A stretch of DNA of 64,000 nucleotides, from positions 372,001 through 436,000 of the forward strand of contig BROG01000393.1 in assembly GCA_030159075.1 (NCBI GenBank). The letters run 5' to 3'. A program made the position numbers and the translations under genes. The notes under the pieces are model-generated. The model was not told where the DNA came from. It saw only the letters and a list, made by a program, of their open reading frames with translations, and did not search any database. This DNA is from Atrina japonica (Eukaryota; Mollusca; Bivalvia; Pterioida; Pinnidae). Shown one piece after another: positions 1 through 40,198 of the stretch; position 1 is the first letter of the stretch; each line of letters starts with the position of its first letter.

Positions 1-3000
1 GGTACATTCAGTCCCGCCAGCGAACCGCCGGCCATTGCGAATATTCTAGGGGGCGGATGATTAGATTGTGAAGAAGTAGGGATATCCGTTGTTGAAGTCG
101 ATTCTTGTCCGTTAATTTGCTGTCCTATGGTATTATCTGCACCTGATCCACCATGTTTACCAGCAACTCCACTTCCGGCTCTTTTGTTCCCAAATTTTAA
201 GAATAATTCATTTCTTTCTCTCAAACCATTTCCGCTCGATATTACAGTGCCTGGTTGAATGAAAATATTGTGATCAGGATTAAAGTTTAGTTTCGATAAA
301 TGAGCATCTATCCAACGAATGCTTTCAGAATCTGGACTACTTAATTCTGAATGATGACTAAGAAATATGTTGTCTTTACTTGGCTTTGGAGGCGTTGATG
401 TAGATGATGGTGTTGACAGAGGCGTTGTTGTAATATAGTTCATATCTGCAGGTGACGGAGCCAGGTTTTGAATCATCTGAGTATTAGAATCTTGGGACTG
501 ACGGAGATTGACATTCATAGTATGATCCGAATTATGTGCAGTGCTGGATTGGCTTGTGCCATCATAGGTAGATTGGACTAGTGGTTGAGATGAAGTATGT
601 CGAGCTAATGGTGTTGTATGCCCTGCGGTATACTCGTTTTTACTAGTTACTCTAGAATCTACAACCCTTCCGCCATGCCTGTTTGTAATTTCTCCATTCA
701 CTTTGTCAGTCATCAGTTGATTCGTAGTAGAATATAAATGTTGCTGAGCCGTTGCATCTGTAATCTTGCCGGAAGTTCCTGTTCTACTGTTGGTGACCAC
801 TGGGTGCGCTACACCAGTAGTTAATTCCGTTTTAGCCATCAACTCGGTGTGGTGATATGGATTTGTTCTTGTTGTATAAAGGTTGGTGGTAGAATCTACT
901 GTACCTCTGGAATGTTGGAAACCAGGAGTGGTGCCTTCTGTTCCAGTATAAGTCGTTGAATAAGTATTTACTGAACCAGATGTATATGGCATTTTGTTAC
1001 TTGTTGCACTGTCTGTTCTTTGGTAGTGTGTAGAAACTTCCCCGGTTATTGCGTTAGAGGTATATCCGTTACTTGCGGTTGTGTCTCCAGAGTAGGTTGT
1101 AGAAATCTCTTTACCTGTGGTGCCAGCTTCATGTTGGTAAGGGGACGTTGAACCTTCTTTGTTTGTGTATATATCGGAAATCCTATTACCGTTTGTTCCT
1201 GTTGTGTGTGGAACATTGTGACCACCAGAAGTCGTGCCTTCTGTACTATGGTGAATGGAAGCCTTTTGGTAGACTGGGACTTTGTTAGAATCCATATATT
1301 CAGTAGGGGTCGTACTTTCCATTCTAGAGTACGTAGAAGCTCCCCCTATCGGTACTGAATCAGTATTATACGTCGCAGATTGATCACCAGATATAACAGC
1401 CTTATTTGTTTGGATGGATGTAGATATATCTCTACTCGTGATTCTATTATCAGGAGTATGACTAAGGGCAGTACCTCCAGTTTCAATGTAGGCAGTAGAT
1501 ACCTCGTAATTTGCCCGATCAGTGCTGTATGCCAATGGCTTATAACTATCAGTTGTAACTTGATTTTGGAGATATGAATCAGAAGCAAGCCTGTTTGCAG
1601 ATTTCGGTGAATAAACTGTAGTGCGATCAATATGTCTCGCGGCTTTTGTTCCGAGATTCGGAGTAGTTTTACCCGAGTCTGCAACTGTGGTTTTATATGT
1701 ATTAAAGTGGCCGACTGTTTCAGTAGCATCTTTTCTATTGTTTGTGTTTCTAGTTTTAGGGGTGTTGACAGACGTAATACCTTTCGTTTCACGGAAGTTG
1801 GCTCTAACTCCTATGTCCGTAGAATCTGCGTGATATACAACAGTGTGGTCAGAATGTTTCATTTCTTGAGGTGTATGAGAGACAGTGGTTACTTCAGAAT
1901 CTACTGAGCCTTTGTTGTTTGGAATAGTGTGTTCACCATACGTAGAACTGTCTATATTGGAAACTCTTCCTTCCTGTCCACCGTTTATGTTTGAGTCTAC
2001 AATATTCCCAAAGGAAGAAGTTGTCCCTGTTTCCTTATAATTAAAATGTTCAATAGTTTTACCTGTTTCTGTATGATTATCAAACATTGTACCTTCAGTA
2101 CTAGGATTTGAAGTAGAATCTCTTATATCCGGTTCATTAGTATTGTAAACAGTTATACCACCGGAAGTTGTACCACGGGAAGTAGAGGCGCCTGTTACAA
2201 GAGGAGTAGAAGAGTGTCTCCTGTCGGATTCTCCAATGTTATACTGAGAAATATTTTTATTTATTTCTTTATCAGCGTAAGAAACGGTGACTGCTGGATT
2301 AGTCTCGTATTGAAAGATATTACTGTCAAGGGTGGTACCTTCAGTTCTGCGGTAAGAACTAATATGATATGTATCTTTGGTTCCTTCTGTTCTAGGGTAA
2401 GTACCAGACTGTCCTGTGTTTGCTATTGTACTTTGTGTGTCCGTGGTACCTTCAGTTCTGAGGTAAGTATCAGACTGTCCTGTATTTGTTGTTGTTCTTT
2501 GCGTGTCCGTGGTTCCCTCTGTTGTAGGGTAAGTATCAGACTGTCCTGTATTTGTTGTTGTACTTTTTGTGTCCGTGGTACCTTCAGTTCTGAGGTAAGT
2601 ATCAGACTGTCCTGTATTTGCTGTTGTTCTTTGCGTGTCCGTGGTTCCCTCTGTTGTAGGGTAAGTATCAGACTGTCCTGTGTTTGTTGTTGTACTTTGT
2701 GTGTCCGTGGTACCTTCAGTTCTGAGGTAAGTATCAGACTGTCCTGTATTTGCTGTTGTTCTTTGTGTGTCCGTGGTTCCCTCTGTTGTAGGGTAAGTAT
2801 CAGACTGTCCTGTGTTTGTTGTTGTACTTTGTGTGTTAGGGTAAGAACTTAAGTGGCTTATTTTTACTGTAGTTATTTCTGTTTGAGGGTCCGAACTAGA
2901 ATGGGTTGTGCCTGTTCTCGTACCATCTGTTTTAGAGTATTGGCTAGAGCGGCTTGTTTCTGCTGTTGTACGTTCTGTTGCAGTATCAGAACTGGACTGG

Positions 3001-6000
3001 CTTGAGAACTTCGTCGTACCTTCTGTTCTATGGTGAAAGCTGGAGTGTCCAATGCCCGATGTATCTTTTGTTCTAGGGTAAGTAATAAAATTATTTTTGC
3101 TCGTTGTCGTACCCTCTTCTCTAGGGTAAGCACTAGATTGACTTGTAACTGCTGTTGTACCTTCAGTTGAAGGATACGACCTTAAATGGCCCGTGTTTAC
3201 TGTCGTGGGTTCCGTTCTATCGTGAGAACCAGAGTGTCTCGTTTCTACTGCCGTACCTTGTGTTCTAGGGTGTGAACTTGATTGCGTTGTGTCTGCTGTA
3301 GTACGCTCTATTTTAGAATATACAGAATGCCCCGTTTCTGTTGTCGTATATTCAGATTTGGGATAAGAACTTGGCTGAATTGTATCTGCTGTCGCACTTT
3401 CTGTTCTAGGATAAGTACTAGAAAGGGTTGCGTTTGATGTCAGAGCCTCTGTTCTAGAGTTAGAATTAGCATGCCCTATATCTAGTCCTCTATTACTATA
3501 CTGAACAAGACGTATGGTGGTACTGTGTGTCATTGGGTTGACACTCGTGGCTTCTGTTGTAACTGTTTTATATGTAACTGTGTGATGACTTGATGTTGAA
3601 CTTTCAGGTCTGGGATAAGTAGAGTACATTCCGTCTTCTGTTACTCTTGTATAAACATCTGAAGCTCCGTAATCAGTCGAGCCAGTGTTATACGTGACTG
3701 GCTGACCACCCGATGTAGTACTATCACCGGAAGTAGTACTTTTAGATTCATGGCTGATTGTTGTCACCTCTTTGTCAGTTTTACCCGATGTATTTACGCC
3801 TGTTTGGTAACCTGAAGTCAAATCGGCTGTGTCTGATGATGGAGTCATGTTTTCTGCTGTAACTGAGTTATGTAGAATGGTTCCGACACCTAGTGACCTC
3901 ATACCTACGACGTCTGTTTTCTTTCCGGTATTGTGGCCGCTTGTGTTGTCTATACTACCTGTGGTGACCACGACATTTGACAGATCATTTATTTCCATGA
4001 TTCCGCCAGTTTCTGGGGTCATGTAACCGTTCCCCTCTTTTGTATTTGATGTAAGCCTGTTGTCGACAACATTGTTTGATGCAAGCCCGTCGTATGTATT
4101 TAGGACACCATTATTATCTATGACATTTAGATTTGCTGTATCGATGCCACTGTCAGGGGTCTCATGCCGAAGATGTCGTGACTGGGATCGTCTGGCAGAT
4201 GTGTCAATATCATGTTCTCCGGGATATATTCCGTTTGTTGTTTTTGTTGTGTTTCCAATGAGTTGTTCAACGACATAACTATTAGATTTATCCTCTTGGT
4301 TAGTTGTCCCACGGCTTAAAATCAAATTTGAATTCAAGTTACTAAGTCCAGATGTTGGACTTATGTAGTCAATGGTTGGCTTTGTGTCAGACGTTGGGCT
4401 AATGTAGTCAATGGTAGGATTTGTGTCAGGTTGATGTTCAAAATTAACACTCTTTTCAGGTTCCCTATCAGCTTTAGTATTAAACTTTATATCAGCCATG
4501 ACATCTAAACTGTTTACTCTCACGGCAGATGTTGGTAAAAGCAAAGTGTGATGTATATATGGGATATCCGGTCCATTTAGTATATGCGTACTACTCCCAG
4601 TATCCATGGGGATTTCGATTGGGTATCCAGCATTACCTCCTATTGTATTATCTACCTTTCCGTTATAGTTCACTGAGTGTTTGTTGACGTTGTTATATAT
4701 ATTCGCATTTTCAGAGAAGACATTTCCGGCTGAGATATCATTTTGTCTGGGATAGTTATTACTAAGTATATGGTCGGTAGCCGTGTTTTGTTTTGCCAGA
4801 TTTTGGTCCACTGTGTCTGGTTCATAGTTGTTACCTAAATTATAATTTGGTGCCGTATTGTGTTTTGTCAGATGTTGATTCATTGTTTTCTTGGGTGTTT
4901 GTATATACGATACACCCCTCAGCAGATTTCCCGACGTCTGATGACTGTCTTGATATGATTTTGATGTAATGGTATCTCTGCTGACAGGTGTTGTCTGCTG
5001 ACGATTGTTCGTAGACGAGTTAGGTACTAACAAGCCAGATATATTCTGTCGTGCTTTCAATATATCACTTCTCGCGACATACGTCATACTGGTGCCAGGG
5101 AGAATAACATCCATTATACCTACAGAATCTTTGTTACGTGTCTTGGAAACATTATATGTGTCTTTATTTGTGTCAGAGGGAATCGTGTGACTTGGGTTTG
5201 GTCTAGAACTCTCAGTTGTGACGTCATTGATTTCACGAGCTTCATTGAGAGTCGTCTGTGGCTCTGTTTTATAGCCGATCGTGGATCTTTCTTTTACTTC
5301 AGTAGCATATCGTTCCGTTACTGAATATGCTGAAACTGAGTTACTTTCTGAATCATTCTGGAAGTCATATGGTTTTTCCGTTTGCTTTCTTGGAGAGCTT
5401 GCAAACGGATCTGTTTTTCCTGCATATCCGTCCGGAATATTAACAGCAGCATAAGGAGTTGTTTGCGAGACAACAACAGAGTTCGTGTCAGATACTTCAG
5501 AAATACTTTGTGATGTAACTGGAGTTTTATCTGTCATTTCTCTTTGATATATCATGTTTTGACTAGCTGACTCGGAAGACCGTTGGCTTGTTCCGGTCGC
5601 TCCCATGGTAGAACTGGACACATCTGGTGTATAATTGACTTGACCGGTCACTCCGTATATTTCCGTGGTATCCCTATTTGTGAAATTTGGGAACGATCCT
5701 TGCCTTCCTGTATTTCCTTGATCTCCAAGTGAAGATAGGGGAGTGTCTAACTTCTGATCCGCTCTTGAAGAATTTCTACTGAATGCTTCACCATTGTGTA
5801 TAGATATCGGTGTATATCCATCCGGAATATTAACAGCAGCATAAGGAATTGTTTCCGAGGCAACGGTGTTCATGTCAGATACTTCAGAAATACTTTGTGA
5901 TGTAGTTCTATCTGCCATATCACTTTGGTTTATCATATAGACATTTTGGGAACGTGACTCAGAAGATCGTTGACTTGTTCCAGTCACTCCCATGGTAGAA

Positions 6001-9000
6001 CTGGATATTCCTGGTGTGTAAGTGACTTGACCAGTCACTCCGTCATATATTTCCGTGGCATTCATATCCTTGTAATTGGGCATCGACCCTTTCGTTCCTG
6101 TATTTCCCTGTTCTCCAAGTGAAGATAGGGGCGTGTCTACCTTCTGGTCTGTTCTTTCACCGAATGCGCCGCCATTTTGTATAAATGTCGGTGTAGTTGG
6201 CGTATCCAAAGGCACAGCATGTGTCTTATCTTTATTTAACTGTCTATTATGCTGGCCTGTATCCATGCCAATATTTCCATCTGTGGACGACGCCATATTA
6301 TATACTGTTTCAATGGTACTTAGCTTTGGATACAAATCCACTGCTGGTATATTTTCTCCAGTAGGTATATACACAGGGATTCCTATGTGACTGTGATCCT
6401 CTTTTATATGGCTCGGCGTTTGGGCATTATTCTTGACATTTTGGTCATGGATTATACCTGTCATCGTGTTGGAATTTTCAATACTTTTTATTGTGGTTGT
6501 TTCGGAATTTTGAAGAAAAACGGGATAACCAGTCTGACCTGAAACTGATTGTCTTTGAGATTCAACTCCCTCTTTGATAGTCTGCTTAGGTCCATGTTGT
6601 GTGTTATAGTCTTTCCAGATATGTTTTCCAGCAGTCGTAGATTTCTCCGCACCTGTCATGTATACCGTTATGTCGTTTTCTGAATTTCCACTATTTGCAT
6701 TTTTCTGTCTTTCAAGATTTGGATTATTGTATATGTGTGTCAAAAGTGTAGTAACTTCTTTTCCATTTTGCCTCTGATTTACATAAGCTGATGATTCCAA
6801 TGCACTATTTAAAGGTAAGTCTGGGTCAGAGAACGTTTTCTCAACCGAAAACGTACTTGCTGGTGTTACAGTGTCTGCTACGGGCATACCGTTTTGCATT
6901 GGACCGTGGTAAGTAGATATTTTGACGTCTTGGTTTGTTCCTTGTGACCTGAATCCAGTATTAGACATGGTATCGATATTGCCTTTGTTGTTTTGATTGT
7001 GATAATCTGTTTTACCTGTCACATAGGGTTCTGTGGTGGCAATAAAATTCATTGTGGAGTCTGTACCCATCGCTTCACCATATGTGCTGGTAGAACCGTT
7101 TGGAATTTTGGTCACGTTATTCGTAGACTTTGTAATCGATTCTATTCGAGCGCCGCTTACTAATGGCCGTGCGGCATTTATATATTTTATATCAGTTCTA
7201 ATTGGACCACTGCTGGACGTATCCTGTTGTAGAGAACCAGGTGGCATTTGTTTTGTCCCAGTAAATTTGTCGGTAAATGCTTCTTGATTCTTATTTGGTG
7301 TAGGATATGTAACAATGTTTTCATTTGTATTTTTAATTATTGGGTCCTTCTGCAAGTCGGAGGCCTGTACTTCCCCAGTCCTCAAACCTCCTAAAAGTCG
7401 CTGATTTCCGTTAAAAGATGTTCTGTGTCGAGGTATATTTCCCGGGGCCCCGGGATTTCTATTTGTGTTCACATGATCTGATAAAAGAGGTGTCTGTTGT
7501 GATGTTAGAATGGACGATCTCATCAAGGTGTCAAGAAGTATATTGTTTTGTTCTTTGCGTCCAAAATTAAATGCCATTGCCCTGTATGGACGGACAATAC
7601 CATTATTCAATAAATTTGAAGAGTGATTTTGTGAGGCCATCAACCTCTGCCCATTTGTGTCATATATATTATTCTCATTTGCCGTAATTCCAAGTGGTAT
7701 GCTGGGTAAGTTCATATCAACTGTTGATGTTTGCCTTGTGACACTGTTATGTACATTGTGTTCCTCCGCTACATTTGTACCTGGATAAGCATCGTTGTAT
7801 CCCAAGTCCTTATTTGTTGTTAGGGTACTGTGCCTTTGTTTATGACTAATGCTATTTTGAGAGTCATATTCAGCGTTCCTCACGTTCGAACGTCTTGCCT
7901 GCGCACTGTTTCTATCTGAAATGTCCGATATCATACCTTTTGCAGTATGGTCAATGCTATACTGATGTTTAGACGCTGCCGAACTTAAAGGCGAGTTTTG
8001 GGCTGTCATCTCATTCGTCCTACGCGGTGGCAAGTTTACCATTTTAAATATATTCCCACCGCCTTGTAATTTTGCGTTTAGTAAATGTTTTGGCGGATCC
8101 CTTTCATGAGGTTCCGGGGGTTTGTAACTAAATGATTGTTCTGCATTATTTTGATTAAACGTGAACTTTCTAGGTGATGAAGGATCGTAGTTGATTTTGT
8201 TTACAATTGGTTTTGCATCACCACTTCTATAATATTTCGGTGCTGACGAACCTGCAGCATAGTTTGATGTATTTTCAGAATTCAGTACTCCAGTATTTTG
8301 AGTTTTCCCTATATTTCGATTCTTCAGTAAGTATGGCGGTTGGCCTATGTTATTGTCATTTCTATTGCCGCTAGTGCTAGTGTCAAGAGATGTTTGTACA
8401 CCACCATCTACTCGTGAAGTATGCTCTGTGTATGCTTGGCCTTTATTTCCATCCTTTCGGAAATCCACAGATATACCGCCTGACGTTCTAATATTTGAAT
8501 ATGCTTGTTGCTCGTGACTGGAACTTTGAACTACTGGCTGTGTTTGCATAGCAATACCTTCGTTTTGATTATGGTAATGCATTTGTTGTGTATTTGAGAC
8601 CATGTTATGAGATGTATTATGTTCATTACTCAGTACACGTTTCCCCCTGTTACTATCCTTTGATATATGATGGCTGTCTCCAAATGCTGAAGTTGGTTTA
8701 TGCTGAACATTTACACCATTACTTACAATATGGGTGAGACGTTCACCGGTGATGGTGTTATGGTTTCCTTGGGAATTCTTATACTGGTCAGCATTTGGTT
8801 GTTGAGCAGCATTCGTCTTTTGTGTAATTTGAGAGGATCCCGTTTGTCCTCTACCTCCCGAATGAAAAGAATGGAGCTTGTGACCAGTGCCTTCAATATT
8901 GGTGTCAGGATTATATTTCAGATGATCAATGTTGTTTTTAATATCACTCTGTGAACTTACAGGTTGTTCATTAGTGATAACGGACGTTTGACTTGTGCCG

Positions 9001-12000
9001 GCTTCCTGTTGAGTATTTCTATTACTGATCTCCTGTCGAGACCCTATTATATGTAACTGCTGTCCTAATCCACTATTTTGTAAACTGGTAGAATATGTCT
9101 GTTCATTGGGATCAAATGAAGTTTGTGAATGTATTCTTCCGACTTGTGTATCAGGAGTACTTGGGTTTTGACCTGTTGTCTCAGGAGGTGATGTTTTTAA
9201 TTTTGTAGGTTTATTTAATCTTCCGAGATTTGCTTCATGAGAATATGTCAATGTATCTTGTTTTTCCTGTTGCGCAGCACTGGTGATTATTTGTTGACTG
9301 AAGTCTCCAAATTCAGGTTTAGGAGGGTACTGTGCATTAGACTGAATATCTACAGAATTTGATCGTTGGTTAGTATCTGTAATTTGTGCATCCTGAGATA
9401 ATGTTTGCTGACCAATCTGTTCATTTTGAACACCGTTATGATACTGTTCAGTCCCTGCAGTGTGAGTACCGGAGATATCTATTCCGTTATTGAAACTCTG
9501 TATACCGGTGGAATCGGATTTGTGAGCAGAAGCTACAGGCTGTGTACCCGACGAATACACTTGTTTATCAGTAGATCCGTTTGATGTATCTACAGCGGTT
9601 GACGCTTTTCCATTGATTTCTTCTTGACCATCTTGAAAATAAGTTTGTTGTCCGATATGTTCATTTCCCGTATTTGTAATTTCTTGTCCTATGACTCGGG
9701 GTTCTAAATCGGGTGAATACAACTGTGGGTCAGTGCTTCTGTTATGAGGGTTTGTTTGTTGTATAGTTTCTGCAGTCTGTACGTCGGCGGAATATTGTAA
9801 TTGATTTTTTGTTTGGATTTTACTTTTCAATTGTACATCTGATAAATACTGTTGTTGATTAGCGCCCTCTATGTACGTATTAGTTTGGGTATTTGCTACA
9901 TTGTTAGGATATTGTTGTTGGTTAGCGCCCTCTGTGTTTGTATTAGGAGAGTATTCCTGTCCTCCAGTTTGGGTATGTCCGACAATGTTAGGAGATTGTT
10001 GCTGATTAGTGCCGTCTATGTACGTATTAGGAGAGTTTTCCTTACGTTCAGTTTGAGTATCGGCTACATTGTTAGGAGACTGTTCTTGAATAGCGCCCTC
10101 TTGATATGTATTAGGAGAGTATTCTTTACCCTCAGTTTGTGTACCGGCTACGTTGTTAAAAGATTGTTGTTTATAAGCACCCTCTATGTATGTATTAGGT
10201 TGGGTATCGACCATATTGCTAGGATATTGTTGTTGATTAGCGCCCTCTATGGTTGTATTAGGAGGGTATTGTTGTCCTGCAGTTTGGGTATTTGCCACAT
10301 TGTTAGGATGCTGTTGATGATTAGCGCCCTCTATGTTCGTATTGGGAGAGTTTTCCTTACCCTCAGTCTGGGTATCGGCTACATTGTTACTGTATTGTTG
10401 TTGATTAGCGCCCTCTATGTTCGTATTAAGAGAGTATTTCTGTCTTCCAGTTTGGCTATCTGCCACATTGTTAGGAGATTGTTGTTTAGCGCCCTTTATG
10501 TTTATATTCAGAGAGTGAACCTGTTCTCCAGTTTTTGTATCTGCTACAATTTTAGGGTGTTGTTGATTAGCGCCCTCTATGTATGTATTAGTTTGGGCAT
10601 CGACCACATTGTTGGGGTAGTGTTGATGATTCTCGCTCTCTCTGTTTGTCTTAGGAGAGTGAACCTGTCCTCCTGTTTGGGCATCGGCCACATTGTTAGG
10701 GTATTGTTTTAGATTAGCGACCTCTATGTTTGTATTAGTTTTGGTATTTCCTACATTATTAAGAGATTGTTGTTGATAAGCGCCCTCTATGTTTGTATCA
10801 GTTTGGGTATTTCCTACATTAGTAAGAGATTGTTGTTGATTAGCGCCCTCTATGTTTATATTTAGAGAGTGAACCTGTCCTCCAGTTTTTGTATCTGCTA
10901 CAATGTTAGGGTGTTGCTGATTAGCGCCCTCTGTGTATGTATTAGTTTGAGTATCGGCCACATTGTTAGGATACTGTTGTTGATCAGCGCCCTCTATGTT
11001 TGTATTAGGGGAGTATTTCTTACCCTCAGTTTGGGTATCGGCTATATTGTTAGGATATTGTTGTTGATTAGCGCCCTCTATGTTTGTATTAGGAGAGTAT
11101 TCCTGTCCTCCAGTTTGGGTATCTGCTACACTGTTAGGAGATTGTTGTGGATTAGCGCCCTCTATGTATGTACTAGTTTGGGTATTTGCCACATTAGTTT
11201 GGGTATCTGCCATATTGTTAGGATATTGTATTTTATTAGCGCCCTCTTTGTTGGTATTAGGGGAGTTTTTATCTTGATCTATGACTAAAGATTTTGCGGC
11301 AATATCAACCTGCTGACCTTTAAAACCATTTTGAACGTTTCCATATGTTTGTCGACCATTATTTAAATCAGAGAGATAGTTTTGACTAGTTTCGCCATTA
11401 TTTCTAATACCTGGGGGATATTCATATTGCGTATTGTTTGACATTTCTTGTTGATTCCTTCCTTCTGACTGCACATCTGAAGTGTATTCGGGTAGATTTC
11501 GTCCTTCTACTTTCGTATTTGTTGTATATGATTTTTTATCAATGTTTTTATGTTGAGTACCTTCAGACCTAAGCCGAGTAAGGCCTTCCGGTACAACTGG
11601 AGGAATAATGTCTCCATGTTGTGTATTGTCAGACATCACTTGTTGATGTGATCTTCCTGACTCTGTATTTACAGGATGTTGTGTATTGTCAGACATTACT
11701 TGTTGATGTGATCTTCCTGACTCTGTATTTACAGGATGTTGTGTATTGTCAGACATTACTTGTTGATGTGATCTTCCTGACTCTGTATTTACAGGATGTT
11801 GTGTATTGTCAGACATTATTTGTTGATGTGATCTTCCTGACTCTGTATTTACAGGATGTTGTGTATTGTCAGACATTACTTGTTGATGTGATCTTCCTGA
11901 CTCTGTATTTACAGGGTACCGTGTATTGTCAGACATTATTTGTTGATGTGATCTTCCTGACTCTGTATTTACAGGATGTTGTGTATTGTCAGATATTATT

Positions 12001-15000
12001 TGTTGATGTGATCTTCCTGACTCTGTATTTACAGGAAGTTGTGTATTGTCAGACATGACTTGTTGATGTGATCTTCCTAACTCTGTATTTACAGGATGTT
12101 GTGTATTGTCAGACATGACTTGTTGATGTGATCTTCCTGACTCTGTATTTAGAGGATGTTGTGTATTGTCAGACATGACTTGTTGATGTGATCTTCCTGA
12201 CTCTGTATTTACAGAAAGTTGTGTATTGTCAGACATGACTTGTTGATGTGATCTTCCTGACTCTGTATTTACAGGATGTTGTGTATTGTCAGACATTAGT
12301 TGTTGATGTGATCTTCCTGACTCTGTATTTACAGGAAGTTGTGTATTGTCAGACATTAGTTGTTGATGTGATCTTCCTGACTCTGTATTTACAGGATGTT
12401 GTGTATGGTCAGACATTAGTTGTTGATGTGATCTTCCTGACTCTGTATTTACAGGATGTTGTGTATTGTCAGACATTAGTTGTTGATGTGATCTTCCTGA
12501 CTCTGTATTTACTGGAAGTTGTGTATTGTCAGACATTAGTTGTTGATGTGATCTTCCTGACTCTGTATTTACAGGAAGTTGTGTATTGTCAGACATTAGT
12601 TGTTGATGTGATCTTCCTGACTCTGTATTTACAGGATGTTGTGTATTGTCAGACATTAGTTGTTGATGTGATCTTCCTGACTCTGTATTTACAGGATGTT
12701 GTGTATTGTCAGACATTATTTGTTGATGTGATCTTCCTGACTCTGTATTAACAGCGTACTGTGTATTGTCAGACATGAGTTGTTGATGTGAACTTCCTGA
12801 CTCTGTATTTACAGGAATTTGTGGTTGATTTGTTCCCTCGAATTGTGTATCTGTCGTATATGTTGTTCGACCAATGTTTTTATTTTGAGTGCCATCTGAG
12901 GTTTGTTGGCTGATGTCTCCTGGTTGCCCGTTAGGAGAATTATGCGTATCACGAGTGTAACCTTGTTGACTAATGGCTCCTGTTTGTGAGTTAGGAGAAT
13001 TATGTGTATCATGAGAGTGACCTTGTCGATTCACGTTTCCTGTTTGTGAGTTAGGAGAATTATGCATTTTTTGAGAATGAACTTGTCGACTCACGTTTCC
13101 TGGTTGCGCGTTAGGAGAATTATGCATATCATGAGAGTGATCTTGTCGACTGACGTCTCCTGTTTGTGAGTTACGAGAATTATGTGCATCATGAGTGTAA
13201 CCTTGTTCACTGATGGCTCCTGTTTGTGAGGTAGGAGTAGTACGGGTATCATGAGAGTAACCTTGTCGACTTTCCTCCCCGGGTTGCGCATCTCTAATGT
13301 ACTGTTGATCACCACCGCGGCTTTGAGATCCGGGAACATGATCAATCATATTTTGATATCTAACATCCTGAGTTGCCTCTTTATTTCTCTGTACATTAGT
13401 AGGGTATCGTGACTGTTTGCCGTCACTATTGTGAGCTGTTTGAGAGTATGTGTGATCAGCAGCATCCTTTCCATGCACATTTCCCTCTGTAGACGGTACA
13501 TCTGTAGTACTTCCAGATTGAGCGTATGACGGTTGATCGATATTTGTCGTTTGTGTACTTTGTATGTAGGTCTGTTTACTCAGACCTTCTGTTTGTGCAT
13601 TAATGTTTTGATCTGTACTTTGAAACTGCATACCAGGGGAGTATGACTGCTTATTTCTGACTCCAATACGTGTCTCTTGTGAGTATGCTTGCGAGCCAAG
13701 CTCCCCTACCTGTTCATTCAGGGAAATTTGTTGTTGACTTGTCCTTCCATTGGTTGCTCCTGTTGTGTATTCCTGTTGATTTAAGACCTCATTCTGTTTA
13801 GTTGGAGAATGTGGCTGCTTGGTATCGACTTCAGATGGCTGATCTGAAGACGTTACTTGAGGATGTGTTCTGGTAAAATGTGGTTGTTCACCTACATCTC
13901 TGTGTGCAATCTTATTAGAAGAGTGTTGTTGTTGATTCGATACACTTTTCAAATTTCCCGATTGTTGGTGAATTCCACTACTGCGTGTCTCAGGAACGTT
14001 TGACTGCGTTCTTACACTTTCTGATTCTACGCTAGGAAGTTGAGATTGTCGACCGCCGCCTGGTTCATGAGCATCAGAGGTATGTGCCTCTGAATTTGTA
14101 ACTCCAGTTTGAGTATCGATCAAATATTGTTGATGGCTTTCTCCTTCAGATCGTGAAACAGTATTTCGCCCGTTTGGATTGAGAATCGTTTGATCGGCTT
14201 CTGTATTTTTGGATTGTATAGATGTCTCTGAATTAGTAATTCCGGATTGATAATTGAGAGGATATTGCTGTCCGCCTCCTCCAGATTGTGTAGCGGTATT
14301 TTGTTGATTTTCAATGTTCGTCGGTCGATCTTCTCTTGTATGTTTGGGTAGCATACTTGACTGATCAGTAACATACTGTTTTTCGTGTTGATTCGAGGCT
14401 CCGTTAAGAATACCAGGACTTTTCGTATTAGAAGTATTAGACATCGTTAAAGTACTTCCTTGTTCCATGCCGGAAAATTGAGATTGAGACTGCTCATTAA
14501 TGAGTTTGTTATTAACGTCACGACTCTCTGATATAGCGGGATCCGACCTAGAATTAGTATGGTATTGCTGATGTCGGCCCGCGTTGGACTGTGAAGCAGT
14601 GTTGGGTACATTTTGTGTGTGCGTCTGTTGATCTGCTGATGTTTTGAGTACATTATATGACTGGTTTACAGTATGTTGGTTCATTTGTTGACTTGAATCT
14701 TCCATAAGACTTGCCGAACTTAGTGCAATACCGCTACCTTGTGTATCAGGATAAATCGAATGCTTTGTTGTACTTTCTGAGCCCATTCCAAGAGATTTAG
14801 TCTCTTGACTATTACGTGTGTTATGAACTCCTGGACCATGTGGCTCTGTAGAGGTGGCATCTGTTTTGGAATTTAGACGATTTTGATTATGTATATCTCC
14901 TCCTGATTGAGTGTTTGCCTGTTGAATTTCTTTTGTGTTTTGGGCTTTTATATCTGCTTGCTGATTTGTGGCACCATTAAGAGTCCCAGCTTGTTGAACC

Positions 15001-18000
15001 GTACCACTACCCTTTATATCGGAATAATACGTCTGATCACCAGTGTTCTGTGGCTCTGTACCTAGTGATTGACTCTGTCCTGTGTTTGTTGCTGTGTTTG
15101 TGTCCTGGGTAACGTGGCTAGGTCTCTCTGTCCCAGTTTGAGCATTTTCAAGATTTTTTTTGTTTCCGTCACTTCCGGTCTGAATACTAGATTCGATACC
15201 CTGTTGATTTTGTGTGTATATATCGTGATGGGATCCTGTGGGCTTGGATTCTACATTTTTCTGTTCAACATTTGCAGTACTCGTAGAGTATTTCTGATCT
15301 GTAATCACATCTTTGTTTGGACCATTAGAATACGTAGCACTAGTGCTACTTTCTCTCTTATAAGTTTCCTGAACGTAACCTCTATTTTGTGTATTAGTGG
15401 AATATGGTTGGTGGCTAGCTTCTCCAGTTTGTGAGAATTTAGAAACATTTATTTCCTGTCTTGCTCCAGTAATTTGCACATTTGGAGAGTACGTACTATT
15501 ATTGTCTGCATTCCAGACATTGGAGTTGTACATATCGTTACCCTTCTCTGTAGGTCCTGTACCTGGTGAATTTATTCCTTGTACTTGACCATCCATATAA
15601 TGTGTATCATTGTAACGTTGTTTAGAGTATGATAGATTTACTGTTTTATGTCCTGTGCCATCCCTAGACTGAATACGTGCTTGTCTGTCATTCATTATAA
15701 AAGAGGAAGAAGGATCGGCGGCGGAGGAACCCATGTCTGTATTTTCCAATAATTTATTGCTAACGTCAGGGGAATAAGATGGTTTTTCCTTGCCTTTGGT
15801 TTCTACTTGTTTATAGTAAGGTTCCTGAACTGAGGTTTTGATCTGTCCATCTAGAGGGTTATTCATTTGGTTATTAGCTTTGGGTGTAACATATGTTTCT
15901 TCGACTGTATCAGGAGCATCTTTCGAAGAATGTTGACCAGCCTGTCTGTTTTGTTCGATTGTGGAATATTTCTTTTGACTCATGTCAGTAATCCGAACAT
16001 TAGACCCGACTGTGTTCGACTGGTTTGCTGGATTATACGATTGTTCTGCAGTATTTTGCACCACTGAGGTATACGTTTGTTGATCTTTAGCCCCACCATT
16101 TCCAAAAGAAGAAAATGATTGCTGATCTGTTCCTTTATCTGTATCTTGCAAACTTGTCTGTTGTTCATTGACCGAGGTGTCTACATTAGAAGAAAATGCC
16201 TGTTGCTTTATATTTCCGGTATGTGTGTCTTGTGTATCTTTCTGTTGAGCAGTATCTACTCCATAACCTTCCCCGGATAACTGCGTGTTTTGTGAGTTCG
16301 TCGTTGTTGCTTGTCCACCGATTTGTTGTTTATCTGCATACATGCCTGTACCTTCGGTTGTTAATTGGTATGAAATACTTCCTGCCTCAGCCTCGTTTGC
16401 GAGGTAAGATGCCGTTACAGTATCCGCCACTTCCGGTTGTCTGTAATGTGGCTCAATCTGAGTAGACGGAGTTGTAATAACATTTTCCTCGGCGACCACA
16501 GTGCTTGAACCTCTCCCTGATCCAGTGTTTCCACCTGCGTCTGCATCACGACCTCCATATCTGATTGATCTATCTGAATTTCGATAGGCTAAGGTGACCG
16601 TCCTCCTGCCAGAGCCATTTTCGTTTACGGAACTTTGTGTAGATGTAGACCTGAATTGTGAAGCTCTGTTACTGGGAGTCGAATATGACAATGAAACTAT
16701 TCTACGTCCATTACTGTCATATCGAATTCTTTGTTGTCTGTTGCTCGTTGTAGTTTCAAACTTTGGAGTACTTTTTCTTCGGTATGATAAGGTGACTCTC
16801 TTTCTACCGGAATCCGTAGATTCATTTGCATTTGTTGTACTTTGGGTTGTTGATGATGGGTATCGTGAGCCTCTGTTACTTGGAGTAGAGTAGGAAAGCT
16901 TGACTACTCTACGTCCTGTTCCGTGATTGTTTGACATGCTAGTTATTCTATTGGTCTCACTAGAAATTGACGGTTTCTTCACAGTGCCTGACTGCTGTGT
17001 AGAACTAATGTCATTGTACTCAGAATTCCCATTTTGTTTTACCAGAGAATTTGAGTTCTGGTATGACAAATTGGCTGTCCTTTTGCCAGACACAGTGGTG
17101 ATGTACTGTGAACCACTTGACATGGTGGTGCCCTCTGTGGCTGTATACTGCGATTGTTTGTTACTTGGAGTTGAATATGAAAGTTGAACTACTTTACGTC
17201 CTGTTCCGTGTTCGAGTTGACTTCTTGAATTTCTATCATTACTTGAACTTGGATAAGACAACTCCTGTCCAGTTTCGGACTGTTCATAGCCTACATTTTG
17301 TGAACCTGTCTTTGTGACAGAGCCTGTCTTTGAACTATTTGACATTGTGGATCTATGGGTAGTTTGGAATTTAGATTCTTTGTTATTTTGAGTCGAATAC
17401 GAAAGTGTGGTTATTCTGCTTCCCATCTCCTGGTCATATTGGCTACCAATTTGGGAGTCTTTTGAAGAATATTTCTTTATGTCTGGCACCATGGAACGCA
17501 TTTTGCTATCGGATTCCGAAGTGCTGTATTGTGGGCTTTGTCTGGGTACTGATAAATTTCCAGAATTTTTAGTGTTAGAATTTTGATACAGTGTTTCTTT
17601 GACACTTTCTGAAATATTTTCATTTTGCTTAATTGAATGGTTTTCAACAAGTTTGCTTGAGAGAGATGATTGAGTGTCGGTATCTGGTTGCAAAGATCCC
17701 GTGTTCCTATATTTATGAATACTAATTCCTTTCTCTTGTTGTGCTTTTGTAACATATTGTTGCGTCTTCGACGAAAAGTCATATTCTGGTGTCGTAGACG
17801 GGTATTCCGTATTTGGATGTTTTCGTAAATTCGACAAGGTAACCATTCTACGACCACGCCCATTCGGCTTTAATGTATCTTGTGCCGTTGTAGCAGTTAT
17901 ACCAGTATCCCTCGGTGCACTACCTTTGTTGGTGGATTCAATGTTTTCGTGCAATGTTGGCGGTTCCTTGTTGCGTCTAGGAACATTCCCGTCAATTATA

Positions 18001-21000
18001 GCACTGGAATTGTCACTTTGGGATGGTGAAGAAGCATTTGGGATGTTTTTATCAACATGAGAATTGGTCTCAGAATTTATTTTTTCTTTTTTTAAAACTT
18101 TTCTCTGGTGGTGCGGAGATCCACGTATTTGTTCTAAATTCAGATTTGATTTTTGTGACACATTTTCTGGAAACATATCTTGTTGTGGGCGGGAAGACGT
18201 TGAACGTTCTCCTATTTTGTCTATTAAACCATTGGTATTTTCCCTTTCCGATGTACTAAATTCCCGTAGCTCAGCTAAAAATGGTTTTGATGGATTTGTT
18301 ACCTGTGGATTTGGTTTCGGTTTAATTTCTTTTTTATCCATCATTAGCAATCGCTCCTCTTCGTTTATGTAATATGGCTCAGCACTTGTAAACTGTGTGC
18401 TTTCGAATAGTGTTGGGTTGTGCTCTATGGCATGTGTTGGTGTTGGTGGGGTGTAGTTTATTTCATGATTATGCTGAACTTCCGGAACACTTTCACTTCT
18501 AATCGTCGGATTGTTACGTGATCCACGTTCGTGGAATGCCATGATTTTCTCGGTCAGAAGGATGTCGGCGAGTTCAGTTTGGTTTTGTGCTAATGCCGCT
18601 TGTATGGGATCATTTTCTCTCTGTTGCTGAGAATTAATGGATCCATTGGTATGACTGGTTTGACCCAAACTGTTCACATCACTACTAGGTAATTTTGAGT
18701 TTCGATTGATTGTACCGACATTGTTAGATTCTATATGTTGGTTCACCTTTTTAGAATGTGTACCTACATTATTTTGTGATCTAGTGTTGTCGCTAGTGGC
18801 AGTTTGGCTTCTCTGTGTGTTCATTGCCTTTTTATTTTCTGTATTCTCAATAGTTCTAATCTCACGTCCATTTGAAACAGTATTAACCTCGTTAGCTGTG
18901 TGTATAATATTTTGATTATGATTTTCCGGTGATTGTTGCTGCACATTTTCAGTTGTACTTACTGTGCCGCTGTTGAGATGTCCGTTTGAGTGTACGTTCG
19001 ATTCGTTGTTCATGTTCTGCAACTGGCTATTTTCCTTTACATACGTTGTTTTATCTTGACCAACATTTCCGGAGTTACCAAATATATTCACTGAGTTGCT
19101 TTGAACGTCATTGGGTTTTTGCTTTTCCATTTCACCTTTACTTCCTCTACCGCTGTTGACATCACCATGTGAGTGTAGATTAGTTTCACTGTTCGTTTGT
19201 TTAATCTGGACAACTCCATGGGTAGAATGTTGTGAAACTTTGCCTTTTGTCTTTTGGATTGAATTACCTTCTTGGCCTTTAATAATTCCAGAATTTAATT
19301 CTTTATGCTGAAGTTCTCCATTTTCTGCTTTATTTAGATTTTGTCTTGCATTTATAGGGACGTGTGTGAGCTCCATAGTCCTTTCTGATTGTATAGCGGT
19401 GTTAGGTTGCATCTGATGTAATGACGAACCACTAGCAGCGTTACTTTGTGTTTCATATTGGGTTGTTGTTTGATCATTTGCTTTCATTGTACTGGCTGAC
19501 GGAGTTTCATTATCATGTCCAACAACCAAATTGGAACCACTTGTATGGTGGATCGCTGCATCTGTAGTTGTATGTTGTATTGTATTTCCTAGTTCTTTCT
19601 GTTGATCCGTGTTCTGTAGTCCGTTTAAGTTTATATTTATCCGATGTTCTACGACTTCTTTGTTTTCGGAACCTTTCTTTATTGGTCCAGATTTCCCCAG
19701 ATCCGAGGGAGTAGTAAGATATATATTTGCATTAGCTTCGGAATTCGAATCTGTGTGATGATGACCGGATGATCGTATTTGTCCGGAAGTAGAGGTATCC
19801 ATTATCTGGTTAGGTGTGTGTGTGCTTCTTCCGTTTGAGGTATTCTCGATAACGGGATCTAGTTTTTTATTACTCTGTTGTAACGCTGGCAGATTGTCTG
19901 GATGTTGTACCATATGGTTCGCATGAACTGTTGAATTATCCTGTTTTGTTACTGTATCCGTCCCCTTCTGTGTATGATGATATTTGTTATCAGTATGTTG
20001 ATAGTGGTCCATTGTGTTTCCTGACGGAATGTTGTCCATTCCATTGCTGGATGATTGTCCCATTTGGTTTGTATTGTCTTGTGTTATTGTATCAAAGTTT
20101 CCATTGTTAGTTGTAACTCTATTTGACAAATGATTAAAGCTATTTTGTTGCGCACTGTGTGGCTTTCCATGCGAAACGGAATTATGTGTTTCGGTGGTAC
20201 GAACTTCGGGTGAAGAATGATGCGAACCAACAACAGTACCATCATTTCCGGTGTATTGAGTAGACACGCCATAATTTACCGATTCCTGAACAAAACGGAC
20301 ACCCGTAACCGGATTAATGAAATGAGACGTGATTTTCTGAATCAATTGACCATTTGGACCTTGTTCACTTGATACATTTGTTCTTTCCAGTATCATCGGT
20401 CCCATTTCGGTATGGACGTATTGTACATGTGTATTAATAGCGGAATTATGTGTTTCGGTGGTACGAACTTCCGGTGAAGAATGGTGCAAACCAACAACAG
20501 TGCCATCATTTCCGGTGTGTTGGGTAGACTCGCCATAATTTACCATTTCCTGAACAAAACGGACACCCGTTACCGGATTAATGAAATGAGACGTGGTTTT
20601 ATGAATCAATTGACCATTTGGACCTTTTTCACTTGATACATTTGTTCTTTCCAGTATCATTGGTCCCATTTCGGTATGTACGTATTGTACATGTGTGTTA
20701 TTAGCGTCTGGACTTTTTGACCCAGTATTTTCATCTGTCTGCCTGAACTGCATTGAAGACTGGAAGCCAACATTATCTTGCTTGATCTGACTTTGTAGAT
20801 TTTGAACATTTCCTCTAAAGCTATTATCATGCATTTGTTTTATTTCTGAATTTGGAATGGATGGTTGAGTGTTGGACATCGTATGAGTGCTTTCGTGCGA
20901 AATCATATGTTCTGGGTTCCCAGGTTGTCCCCGTAAGGTTTGAACATTGTGGAAATTGTTCATTTCATTACTCATTGGTGTGTTGTCTGTTTGATGTGTA

Positions 21001-22190: not shown

Positions 22191-22730
22191 TTAATTAAAT
22201 TAAAGAATTCAATATTTGACTTCCACATAATTATTCCTCATTACACCTTGCTCGCGCGTGTTCATATCATTACTAGTAGATAATGCCTCTGCATTTCTTT
22301 GAGTCTGCATATCTGCTGCTCCATTGGGATCTACATTCTCGGGTATTTCAGAATGAGATACTGTATTTTGTGAAGATATGGAAAAATCATTGTTATTTCG
22401 AAGATTTTCGTTGTTTTGTTGCCCAGCGTTTGTTGGGGAATTGATATTTTGATGCGCCATGTTGGCCACACCATCTGAATGACTATTGCTCACCGATTGA
22501 ATCGCAGGAGGCATTCCGTTTTGGAAGTTCGTGCCTTGATTTATCGGTCCATTTCTGCGATTAACATTTATGAAAGGTGGCAACCAAGTCCCTGGGGCAA
22601 CCATATTTATCTGTTGATGTGTATTCAGTAATGCTGTTGGTTGCATTGGGATATTCGGTGGAATGTTCCCTCCGTGGTTAATTGTTGCAATGCCTAAATT
22701 ATTCTCTTGATTGACGTGCACTATTCCAGT
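21400..22730 (-). repeat. Roughly 120-residue repeats (three copies) spanning the exon C / giant exon break
   Basis: Three related blocks read IPMQPTALLN...PPFINVNRRNGP, then IAMQPTAMMN...PIITVNQRNGP, then IPMHPTAILN...PPFITVTNRGG. The first is in exon C (about 22550-22660); the second and third are in the giant exon (about 21990-22080 and 21590-21690). Homology extends beyond these cores. It shows that the two open stretches share an origin. Confidence 0.8.
22141..22208 (-). other. AT-rich interruption with in-frame stops; candidate small intron
   Basis: About 90% A+T, unlike the coding sequence on both sides. It separates two long open stretches in the same frame: TGA at 22209-22211, TAA at 22191-22193. 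Possible minus-strand boundaries are a donor TAT|GTGGAA (22226) or GAA|GTCAAA (22220) with an acceptor AATAAG|TATCAA (22149) or CCTCAG|TCATTCC (22095). All are phase 0 but weak. The polypyrimidine tract is poor, so a true end of gene cannot be ruled out. Confidence 0.5.
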
Positions 22731-25207
22731 GGGGACTACAGACATGTGCATATTCATTGGCGACATTCCGCTTCCCATGTTTATACCGGGTGCAGCTATA
22801 TTGATATGCGGCTGGACATTCCTCAATTCAGTGGGGATCGGAGGCACTGACATTCCTCCAACTCCCCGCATTGGTCCGGTAAATGTGTTGCTATGGGAAT
22901 TGGTATCTGTCATATGGGGAATTTCTGGCACGTGACTTCCGGCGTTTATTCCAGAGGATGTTAAAGTATTCTTCATAGAGTTTATGTTCGCATTTATTGC
23001 CGGATTATCATGATGCATATTTATATGTTGTATTGTATTTCCAGCATTGTTTAGCAGATTCCTATTTATGACAGCTCCTTGGCTAACTGCATTAAACTCT
23101 CCCTGTCCAGAATTTACCAATACCTTTGTAGCATCTACTACAGTGTCTAGATCGGGTCCAACAATTGTTGTAGAAAATGGCTGACGATTGCTGTTTAACG
23201 GCATGTGTGGATTTACACTTCCGGTTAAACTTTCGCTGTTAGGTAAACTGGGTTCTGGTATAACTAGTGGTGGTGGATCAATTCCTAGATGAGATTCCGT
23301 TGGAATGGGTTCACCACCCACAATTTTATTTTCCATGGTTCCGGGAGTATTTTGAAATCCAGGATTGACACCTGTGTTATGGTTTATACCGTGAAACTGG
23401 TCGTGATGTATTGTGCGGGTTCCACTAGGATTATTGACATGCACATGGGCGTGATGTATTGTGCCGGTTCCACTAGGATTATCGACATGCACATGGGTGT
23501 GATGTATTGTGCCGGTTCCACTAGGATTATTGACATGCACATGGGTGTGATCATGTGATGGCATTCCTGTTTGCAAAACACCATTACCTCCATCAACATG
23601 AATGTTATCTCCGGCAAAATGTGTCTGTGCATGCATATTTTGTTTCATTGAATTACTGAAATCCATATTATTAGTGTTCTGTCCTTCAGGTACATACCCC
23701 TCTACAAGTTGTCCATTCCCATTGTGAAATGCATGCAACTGTCCTCTTGTCTCCATTGACCTACCATAACTCCCGTTCTTTCCGTTATTGTTGTAGTTAT
23801 CACTGTTGCCTGTAGTTTTATTATACGTGGAAAATGATTGGTGTTGCATTGTGCCCCCCTTTCCTTTATATTGGCCATTTGTATGATTAACATTACTTAC
23901 GTTTACCTCAGGTCCAGATGGATTGCTTTTCTTCTTGACAGATTTATCCTTCGTATTTGCATATTTAAAATGTTGTTGACCTTCATTGGTTTTGTGACCG
24001 GGATATGGGGACGGATGTGTGGATTCACTAAACATATTAAAATCAGTTCTTACTGACGCACCAGAGACTTCGTGCTTAGCAGGTCCTTCTACCCCTACAT
24101 TTCGGTTTTCATTTAAGTGTGTTGTTCTGTGATGAGAGATAGTCGTCGCTCCAACAGATGGATGTTGATTTCTTAAATCGGTTTGTGAACGAGCTTCTAA
24201 GGTAGAATCCATTATATGTGATTGAGATATGGATCCTCCGGGGTGTGACATAGACATTGAATTCGACCCCATTGACTGTGTATGTGAGACCGAAAATGAC
24301 CCTGTCCCTTGCTGTTCAGATATAGAAGATGACCTCGTTGCATGAGAATGTGACCTTAAAGACGATCCAGATGTGTGTGGATTAAATGATGGAGATGACC
24401 CTGCTGTGTGTGAAAATGATGACGATGACTGTATTGTTTGTGACGATGAAGGTGGTCCTGTACCTCGAATATGAGATGACACTTCTGTTAAATGTGACTG
24501 ATGTTGGTTTACATGGGCAGGATTGCCAGTGGCGTCAAGCGATGAGATATGGGAATTAACACTTTGAGTATTTTGTTGATGATGCACAGTTCCACTGCCT
24601 TGTCCTCCAGCAGTATGTTGTTCAGTATGAAATGCTGTCGAATGCACAGTACCAGAGTGGTCTATATTATGTGTTTGACCTCGGTTTATATGTGTAACGT
24701 GAGACATTACAGACGGCTCATGGACAGGTACGTGGGATTGGATGTCTCTCATATTGTGGCGATTATTGTGGCCACTGTTTGTGCTAACGGTAGAGTGGAT
24801 GTTTTGCACGTAACCTGTATGTGACTTTGCTGAAGTCTGTACATCCGGGTTTGTGTTGGTAAAACTATTCATTGACTGATGTGTTTGTCCGTTTATTTGT
24901 CCAATACCTATTTGGGCTTCAGTGAGACTTTGAGGATGTGGACTATTTGCAGTGTTGCCGTTGTGAGTGTTTGTCGAAACTTGTTCTTGTTGTGTTGAAG
25001 TCTGACGTTGATATCCAGGTGGGAAGAACATACTTTGATCTTGGAAATTCATTTGATGAAAGTTATTCATACCTAGATTGGCCTGTCTTCTGACACGATG
25101 TTTATATGTTCTCTTCTTGTTCTCAAATACTCTTTCATCCAAAATAGAAATATCAGCACAGTTGATAAACGTTTCTCTTTCCAAACAATCCGGACAATCT
25201 TTGTTTT
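22209..25207 (-). CDS. Exon C of giant gene: end of AA15 domain, furin-type site, start of repetitive tail
   Basis: The acceptor is TTTATTTACAG|AAAACAAAG. Joined to exon B in phase 1 it reads WKFTV-ENKDCPDCLERETFINCADISI; CADISI is the usual end of an AA15 domain (residue about 217). It is followed by a basic stretch ending RVRR|QANLG (residue 236), a furin-type consensus. About 960 residues of N/S/T/G/H/Q-rich, apparently Cys-free sequence follow, with short Ser/His repeats, e.g. HVHVNNPSGTGTIHHT three times. The frame stops at TGA 22209-22211. The true exon end may be a donor a little upstream (candidates CAAG|GTGTAA at 22247 or TAT|GTGGAA at 22226), leading into the next long exon, which is in the same frame. 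The open frame also extends upstream past 25207 to 25307, but that stretch is intron. Confidence 0.85.
23402..23556 (-). repeat. 48-bp in-frame repeat (16 residues), three copies
   Basis: Within exon C. The unit encodes approximately THVHVNNPSGTGTIHH, with changes D/N, A/T and R/G between copies. The period of 48 keeps the frame. Confidence 0.9.
25083..25097 (-). other. Furin-type cleavage site RVRR|Q
   Basis: The codons CGT GTC AGA AGA CAG give R-V-R-R-Q, which fits the R-X-R/K-R rule for proprotein convertases. It sits 19 residues after the end of the AA15-like domain and just before the low-complexity tail, in a basic context (ENKKRTYKH). Cutting here would release the tail from the folded head. 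This is a motif match only. Confidence 0.5.
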
Positions 25208-35850: not shown

Positions 35851-36223
35851 CAACAGTGAATTTCCATCTAAGAATACACTGATCACATGTCACTCCTTTT
35901 GGGAGACTAACGTTTAATGTTATATTCTTATCTTCACCTCGGCTTCCATGAAATAAATCAGCAATCTCCTGGATCGTTAACTGTTTAGAATCGGAACACT
36001 CCTTTGAGGAATGACTGGACACTGTTTTATCCATACACAGAAACAACTCCATAACACCCGAGTGTCTTGAAGATAATACAGAACTGACTTGGATGACAGA
36101 TCCTGATTTATAAATTTGGGAAACATGAAATACTGAGAAAATTCCCCCACTTTCATGGTCACGTGGTCCGTCCCAGGCGTCACCACATAATCCACATTTG
36201 CCGCCATTCTTCCCCCACTGACG
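35851..36223 (-). CDS. Exon B of giant AA15-LPMO-like gene: domain core
   Basis: 373 bases, 124 codons plus one base. The acceptor is a good one (TTTTTTCAG|CGTCAG) and the donor is G|GTAAGT. Phase 0 in matches exon A and phase 1 out matches exon C. The protein starts RQWGKNGGKCGLCGDAWDGP, the hallmark of AA15 LPMOs, which cut chitin or cellulose with copper when active. The central His of the family (usual context ANHxGYFEF) is kept as SSRHSGVMELFLC, residue about 125 of the joined protein. The later VTCDQCILRWKFTV matches the family's CxQCvlqWkY motif. All Cys pairs expected in this section appear present. Function is inferred from family resemblance. Catalysis is doubtful because exon A lacks the first His. 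Confidence 0.9.
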
Positions 36224-38649: not shown

Positions 38650-38785
38650 AAAATTCAGATACCAAAGTATAAATTAATGGAATGTCCAGGACATAGATAC
38701 AAATCCGGTAAAAATGGACAAACACGGACCTCTGGAAACCAAGAGGTGGGATCAGGTGCCATGGGGGAGTAAGCATCCCATGTAA
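38650..38785 (-). mobile_element. Type-I RT element 3' end, truncated
   Basis: Consensus from the CAGATACCAAAGTATAAAT end up to GGAGTAAGCATCCCATGT. Confidence 0.8.
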
Positions 38786-39940: not shown

Positions 39941-39985
39941 CACTGTTCAGATCGAGAGGATCAAAAGAAATTTCACATGACCTAC

Positions 39986-40198
39986 CTCAATTCCTCCGCA
40001 GTTTAAATTCCCATCATTTTCGTTCACTGCTGTCGGATAGCCATGTCGCCAAAGACTTCCTCGAGGAATTGGATACAGCAAACGTGCGAAATCAGTAGAC
40101 AATGTTAAGTCCACACTCGAAAGTATCACGAAAAATAGAACCTGTTTAAACTTATCACCTCCGTAACGAAAATACATAGCTGCCGAAAAACAGGACAA
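39986..40198 (-). CDS. Exon A of giant AA15-LPMO-like gene: signal peptide and domain N-terminus
   Basis: First coding exon, 71 codons. Residues about 20-34 (VLFFVILSSVDLTLS) form the hydrophobic core of a signal peptide, so the product should be secreted. The mature part starts near TDFARLLYPIPRGSLWRHGY and runs to NLNCGGIE, matching the start of AA15 lytic polysaccharide monooxygenases (family pattern HGRL..PPSR..MWR.GF...CGGF). In that alignment Phe sits where the copper-binding N-terminal His should be. The exon ends in phase 0 at GAG|GTAGGT. Its partner is exon B at 36223, across a 3.8 kb intron. The start is uncertain: a second Met at residue 8 gives a more usual signal peptide of about 27 residues, and an upstream untranslated exon cannot be excluded. 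A paralogous exon with the same donor position lies at 62408 on the other strand. Confidence 0.85.

Follow-up and report, generated by a model that had tools for sequence, protein, structure and literature searches.

Lytic polysaccharide monooxygenases (LPMOs) hold copper in a brace via the N-terminal histidine. The structural reference used here for the AA15 family is TdAA15A from Thermobia domestica (PDB 5MSZ), with His1, His91, Tyr184, Tyr24, and Tyr166 as reference positions (PMC5823890). Disordered tails of 30 to more than 1,000 residues have been described for LPMOs, those of AA15 proteins being cysteine-rich (PMC8615602). In the shell of Tridacna crocea, two PF03067 proteins (Tcr_684209 and Tcr_714405) were reported, both with threonine-rich stretches and one also rich in glycine and proline (PMC8217771), and LPMO_10 was among the domains found when the mantle transcriptome of Magallana gigas was matched to the shell proteome (PMC11464482). 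Here, we analysed 64,000 nucleotides of the bivalve Atrina japonica (GenBank assembly GCA_030159075.1, contig BROG01000393.1, positions 372,001 to 436,000; this whole stretch is the window, numbered from its first letter, with negative positions to its left), which contain most of a gene for a predicted giant protein with an AA15 head. At a probability of roughly 60%, we read this locus as a single gene encoding a secreted protein of ~8,945 residues with a probably dead AA15 head, a disordered linker nearly free of N-glycan sites, and two cysteine modules, which acts as a polymer in an extracellular matrix formed by the mantle.

The giant shares the fold signature, the ten cysteines, and the second brace histidine with TdAA15A but is devoid of His1, Tyr24, and Tyr166, has one loop cut short, and carries ~8,700 extra residues. 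As in the described disordered LPMO C-terminal regions, a Ser/Thr-rich extension follows the LPMO domain, whereas the AA15 tails in that study are enriched in cysteine and the giant linker contains none (PMC8615602). With the Tridacna shell proteins, compared by description only, it has in common the PF03067 domain and threonine-rich low complexity; the table in PMC8217771 lists no signal peptide for Tcr_684209, in contrast to the signal peptide-like start of the giant. The original prediction for this DNA, made from the letters alone, knew of no described example. A giant AA15 fusion was indeed not found in the literature searched, which left out most subscription journals, but the pairing of the domain with threonine-rich sequence (PMC8217771) and LPMO tails of more than 1,000 residues (PMC8615602) have both been reported. 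When AA15 proteins of 3,025-9,625 residues were looked for, 28 candidates came up and none was significant; this is a weak negative, as the search used words of exon B only and stopped at 9,625 residues.

Structure and coding status of the giant AA15 gene

All exons lie on the minus strand. Exon A (39986..40177) starts with ATG, encodes the first 64 residues with a hydrophobic start that is signal peptide-like by hydropathy only, places Phe30 at brace position 1, and ends at the donor GTAGGT. Exon B (35851..36223) carries the AA15 core (GGKCGLCGD...), including the second brace histidine, His118. Exon C (22245..25207) encodes, in one frame, the end of the AA15 match (23 residues, ENKDCPDC...NCADISIL), a furin-type RVRR motif with Gln as the next residue (25086..25097, residues 226-229), and ~950 tail residues. 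Exon D, which encodes most of a cysteine-free repetitive linker, occupies 1..22106, runs on beyond the left edge of the window, and closes with TAA at -1201..-1203 (contig 370799-370797, L002:8797-8799).

Exons A, B, and C have canonical GT/AG edges and phases of 0 and 1, and their joining results in a continuous AA15 domain, as had been predicted; the signal peptide-like start, the furin-type site, and the very long tail are likewise present. Other details changed. The start had been placed at 40198, where the codon is TTG, and no AG precedes the acceptor proposed at 22090. The tail, which had seemed open at the window edge, ends 1.2 kb to the left of it, where the suggested leftward extension of the contig revealed the TAA stop and two cysteine modules. 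Since the final 23 residues of the AA15 match (ENKDCPDCLERETFINCADISIL) and 947 tail residues form one open frame to the chosen end of exon C, this stretch of the fusion is independent of the splice model. As judged from the genomic sequence, the fusion of AA15 head and tail is real and larger than first described, and the idea of a secreted protein with a structural rather than enzymatic role is supported.

A chance origin of the tail frame is excluded: base composition predicts ~504 stops (codon-position composition, 289) for the 8,315 codons of the tail within the window, and each of the 121 ungapped pairs of internal repeats that BLAST detected is mutually in frame. The remaining five frames over the tail contain 379 to 729 stops. 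The pooled ratio of nonsynonymous to synonymous differences between repeats (pN/pS) was 0.62 in the true frame and 0.91 and 1.12 in the shifted frames. Taken singly, the arrays are less favourable to a constrained frame: pN/pS was 0.26-0.58 in four of seven, 1.00 and 1.52 in two, and undefined in one.

Exons C and D are parted by in-frame stops at 22211 and just ahead of 22190. Among 14 in-frame GT-AG options we prefer a probable short phase-0 intron at 22107..22244 (138 nucleotides, with in-frame stops), which by our reading retains a repeat beginning GIPQ and gives a protein of 8,945 residues. The A+T content of this segment, 83%, was reached by none of 8,269 coding windows of equal length; its weak splice signals and uncertain edges count against the model. 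Together with the intervening stops, these weak signals would fit a protein that ends at the stop 22211-22209 (1,187 residues, tail ~960), with 22190 to -1201 being either a gene of its own or an extension that has decayed. However, one repeat occurs both where exon C ends and where exon D begins (score 216, compared with at most 84 in 1,000 shuffles), the intervening segment has a base composition matched by no coding window, and the exon D frame has no hydrophobic signal peptide-like segment among its first 100 residues, yet this frame is depleted in N-glycosylation sequons. It also terminates in cysteine modules of the AA15 type. A separate exon D, a case already raised with the original prediction, therefore meets opposition from the shared repeat, the missing signal peptide-like start, and the C-terminal modules, and would seem very improbable. 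An uncorrected BLASTP comparison of exons C and D was set aside (real best 93.6 bits, shuffles up to 70.5, no composition correction). A search of the genome revealed no further copy of 21400-25200.

The cysteines of the protein are confined to its ends: the head (residues 60-205) has ten and the two C-terminal modules (8681-8917) together have sixteen, whereas the 8,451 residues between contain none. The modules follow the pattern WC-xx-NC-x(n)-CP-xxx-C-x-C and gave no Pfam match and no good PDB match. Similar end modules occur in the short AA15 relatives P0001, P0006 (Pecten maximus), and P0010, found by pattern search, and, by eye, in P0003 (Ostrea edulis) and in four loci of this genome (L014, L015, L016, and L029); this likeness was judged by pattern and eye and carries no E-value. 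The resemblance ties exon D to an AA15 gene. In all of these relatives, as in the giant, a head is followed by a linker and a cysteine module. Short AA15 relatives have the brace histidines where these could be read, and the gap between the head and the first later cysteine is 51-139 residues in seven of them (52-139 in P0001, P0003, P0006, and P0010). Rather than a usual AA15 protein with an extra tail, as first proposed, the predicted giant is an ordinary arrangement of head, linker, and cysteine module in which the linker has been enormously lengthened to 8,451 residues.

The AA15 head and its copper brace

The head matches Pfam LPMO_10 (PF03067) with 52.1 bits (cut-off 23, E 1.7e-13) and PDB 5MSZ with an E-value of 4e-31. 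Sequence searches, one of which scored the 7,985 candidates sharing most words, yielded named relatives from oysters, scallops, clams, one ant, and one distant green alga, with top identities of 36-40%, the ant included. All ten conserved cysteine columns of 5MSZ are retained. The His1 column is occupied by Phe30 in the giant and by His in each of the nine relatives, out of 14, that reach it. Changes at this position are also seen elsewhere, namely Gln in P0018, Asn in L013, and Ser in L026. Since the N-terminal histidine is replaced, an active LPMO is unlikely, and we consider the head a pseudo-LPMO that is probably catalytically dead. The axial Tyr184 corresponds to Phe202; Phe is nearly invariant in this column among the relatives, so that Phe202 is no sign of lost activity. 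Both surface tyrosines that flank the active site of 5MSZ are gone, Tyr24 being replaced by Glu53 and Tyr166 lying within a deletion, and the loop ahead of the last conserved cysteines is shortened.

Several features of the head weigh against a dead enzyme that anchors a matrix polymer. His118, the counterpart of His91, is kept, hence the putative loss of copper depends on the change at His1. The lost surface tyrosines and the missing loop weaken chitin binding, and cleavage at the furin-type RVRR site would part the head from the tail. Of the label AA15-LPMO-like, the fold has held up, whereas His1 and both surface tyrosines have gone; the domain may still be an anchor for polysaccharide, but for the same reason canonical chitin anchoring is not assured.

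These observations bear on a different division of labour, in which the AA15 head serves secretion and folding only and is released at RVRR, leaving linker and modules as the working molecule with no anchoring by the head. The RVRR-Gln motif indeed follows soon after the domain, and a neighbouring paralogue (see below) has a furin-type site, VRRKRQ, at the equivalent position. The loss of active-site and surface residues also fits a released head, as does its fast evolution: in trees of the AA15 domain, the giant sits on a long branch (1.98; 2.31 for exon B). The retention of the ten cysteines and of the fold signature argues against release, and the furin motif is short and its cleavage putative; we rate this scenario as rather unlikely. 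The giant has no fixed place in the trees, so that they do not fix the number of separate brace losses.

A cysteine-free linker that avoids N-glycosylation sequons

Base composition would predict 88-144 cysteines in the part of the linker that lies within the window, so that their complete absence from all 8,451 residues fits an oxidising compartment. The low-complexity, repetitive character of the tail was confirmed by tandem arrays and by unfolded scores in 7,089 of 8,265 windows along it. No Pfam family exceeded its cut-off in the tail, and comparison with the tails of 11 relatives gave no convincing match (best E 2.3). From the N-terminal side, the arrays comprise three 16-residue histidine-containing repeats (HVHVNNPSGTGTIHHT; 23398..23551), two 88-residue repeats (20177..20706), twenty 20-residue repeats of the VNTESGRSHQQLMSDNTQHP type (11616..12823), a region of 28-residue repeats of the NTNIEGANQQQYPNNVADTQTGGQEYSP type (9850..11270), and seven 22-residue threonine-rich repeats (2378..2836), all encoded on the minus strand. 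Beta strands are predicted at low confidence for the 88-residue repeats, and a single-sequence AlphaFold2 model was poor (mean predicted local distance difference test score 43.7). Protein residues ~2808-3336, encoded by exon D, contain seven scattered motifs resembling G-[RHK]-[RK]-x-V-x-L-S-Y (LSYSTPSNR), possibly a short beta or self-association element.

With 12% Thr and 12% Ser, and threonine-rich repeats toward the C-terminal end, the linker might be taken for that of a mucin-like glycoprotein forming a hydrated coat. Mucins are, however, defined by tandem domains dominated by Pro, Thr, and Ser, and these three residues together make up only ~29% of the giant linker, which thus falls outside the definition. 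N-glycan sites are moreover avoided and the tail contains no recognised Pfam family, which makes a mucin-like coat improbable.

The avoidance of N-glycan sites is pronounced. Sequons (N, any residue except P, then S or T) number 58 in the linker against 181.9 expected from local shuffles (z -11.0; none of 1,000 shuffles as low), whereas the mirror motif is found 184 times against 181.4 expected. Within the window, exon C has 4 sequons (19.5 expected) and exon D 54 (159.8 expected), and the deficit in exon D persists when the main tandem arrays are removed (50 vs 127.6). Oligosaccharyltransferase skips NP[ST] and prefers NxT. In the window, NP[ST] is not depleted (12 vs 9.3 expected), NxT is avoided more strongly (19 vs 91.5) than NxS (39 vs 87.8), and motifs in which N is replaced by Q, G, H, or D are not avoided. 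The simplest reading would be that the frame is translated, that its product passes through the endoplasmic reticulum, and that selection acts against N-glycans on the linker. Sequons are also strongly depleted in L030 (7 vs 38.2 expected) and more weakly in L012 (4 vs 10.5). Speaking against a general rule, L028, L026, L023, and P0015-P0018 show little or no depletion: L026, a brace-changed locus with a long tail, has none (33 vs 31.6 and 70 vs 62.6 expected), nor does P0018 (15 vs 15.9).

Related AA15 loci and a possible class of bivalve matrix proteins

A second AA15 gene lies head-to-head with the giant, 22 kb apart. Its first exon (62408..62590, plus strand) encodes 61 residues and ends at the phase-0 donor GTAAGA; exons 2 and 3 (81983-82349 and 85689-92167, plus strand; L005 and L006) are located to the right of the window. 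The predicted protein of 2,342 residues has the same three-exon head as the giant and Ala and Ser at the brace positions, so both histidines are lost. After VRRKR follows a cysteine-free, Gln-rich tail of 2,126 residues, which has 7 sequons where 24.9 are expected and no C-terminal modules.

A PF03067 scan of the 832-Mb assembly (2,347 contigs) recovered 23 exon-B places, including the giant; as it missed the head-to-head neighbour, the genome contains at least 24 AA15 loci. At the second brace position, 17 of the 23, again including the giant, have His, and the other six have Lys (L013), Ile (L024), Ala or Asn (L025), Glu (L026), Gln (L028), or Met (L030). The His1 column was readable in six of the 22 other loci, with His in L012, L017, L018, and L020, Asn in L013, and Ser in L026. 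Tail length was counted as residues past the CADI motif within one frame, with later exons uncounted. Additional sequence was used for all brace-changed loci (at least 10 kb each) and for 10 of 16 others (5-10 kb each). Brace-changed loci had tails of 8,734 (giant), 2,258 (L030), 2,136 (paralogue), 1,055 (L026), 928 (L028), 188 (L024), and 80 residues (L013). The values for loci with His at the second position were 1,039 (L023), 580 (L012), 272 (L017), 254 (L014), 153 (L011), 150 (L027), 136 (L029), 131 (L008), 121 (L020), 80 (L015), and 68 (L016). Left out of the count were L009 (no end exon in reach), L010 (masked), L018, L021, and L022. Tails longer than 900 residues are thus found in five of seven brace-changed loci and in one of the 11 with His at the second position (p 0.013 by Fisher's test and 0.035 by the Mann-Whitney test), with loci that are not independent and His1 unread for most of the second-position-His group. 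Adding L025, with 40 residues to the first stop, weakens the association (5/8, Fisher p 0.041, Mann-Whitney p 0.15). We consider this association of tail length with the state of the brace fragile, a lead rather than proof.

The giant is not alone in having such a tail, in line with the idea that other molluscan AA15 proteins should be searched for tails above 1,000 residues: this length is exceeded by the paralogue, L030, L023, the split-frame L026, and P0018 of Magallana gigas, and within the same genome L028 joins them at a threshold of 900. P0018 (1,476 residues, annotated as 'Chitin-binding type-4 domain-containing protein') resembles the giant in its changed brace (Gln and Lys) and long tail; unlike the giant linker, its tail of 1,246 residues contains 17 cysteines and undepleted sequons. 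L030 with L034 (C263:727020-740373, minus strand) combines Met at the second brace position with a cysteine-free tail. L026 with L031 (C203:404269-417670, minus strand) has a Ser/Glu brace and an Asn-rich tail, followed by 2,432 residues in another frame with the same repeat, not joined to it; assembly error, allele, or decay are candidates for this split. L023 with L040 (C8:1072736-1081038, plus strand) retains His at the second brace position and has a tail with 25% Asp and long Asp runs, reminiscent of acidic biomineralisation proteins. On C203, L028, L026, and L017 cluster inside 50 kb; of the three, one retains both brace histidines and the other two have an altered brace.

The existence of tails of up to 1,039 residues (L023) at loci with His at the second position, together with the retained His118, would be compatible with the giant being an active tethered LPMO that binds copper via His118 and another ligand while the tail holds the enzyme in the matrix. 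The missing His at position 1, the loss of Tyr24 and Tyr166, and the tendency, fragile as it is, of long tails to accompany brace changes all speak against it, and we hold an active enzyme to be very improbable. Returning to the probably dead head, we tentatively suggest, at somewhat less than even odds, that bivalves have repeatedly recruited dead AA15 proteins as folded ends of giant cysteine-free polymers, that linker growth accompanies brace loss, and that at least some linkers are under selection against N-glycans, with the giant as the extreme member and its head-to-head partner beside it. The effect of L025 on the brace and tail statistics lowers the odds of this reading.

Other features in and near the window are reverse-transcriptase-like fragments recognised by eye (RYIDDVLSINN...; 47352-47663 and 48140-48445, minus strand; 56248-56688, plus strand), with more of them to the right (70908-71594 and 79679-80666), and a satellite-like 36-bp tandem array of ~23 copies at 59045-59867 with several open frames on both strands.

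The sequence itself shows that head and tail are fused, that the frame is open, that the brace is broken, that the protein ends in cysteine modules, and that sequons are depleted; a role as matrix polymer in shell, periostracum, ligament, or byssus is the most likely function. PF03067 proteins in shell lend support, by analogy, to a shell location of the giant. Its folded ends would bind polysaccharide or other matrix parts, and the bare disordered chain, with a contour length of ~3 micrometres at 0.36 nm per residue, would fill or span the space between them. Cleavage at RVRR may detach the linker from the head as the protein is secreted.

These data suggest that a family of chitin-breakdown enzymes has apparently been turned into a structural part. 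Sequon depletion offers a test, requiring nothing but sequence, by which giant low-complexity frames can be recognised as truly secreted proteins. The loci described here provide a list of candidate matrix proteins for work on mollusc biomineralisation and byssus, where gene predictors may cut or miss such large repetitive proteins.

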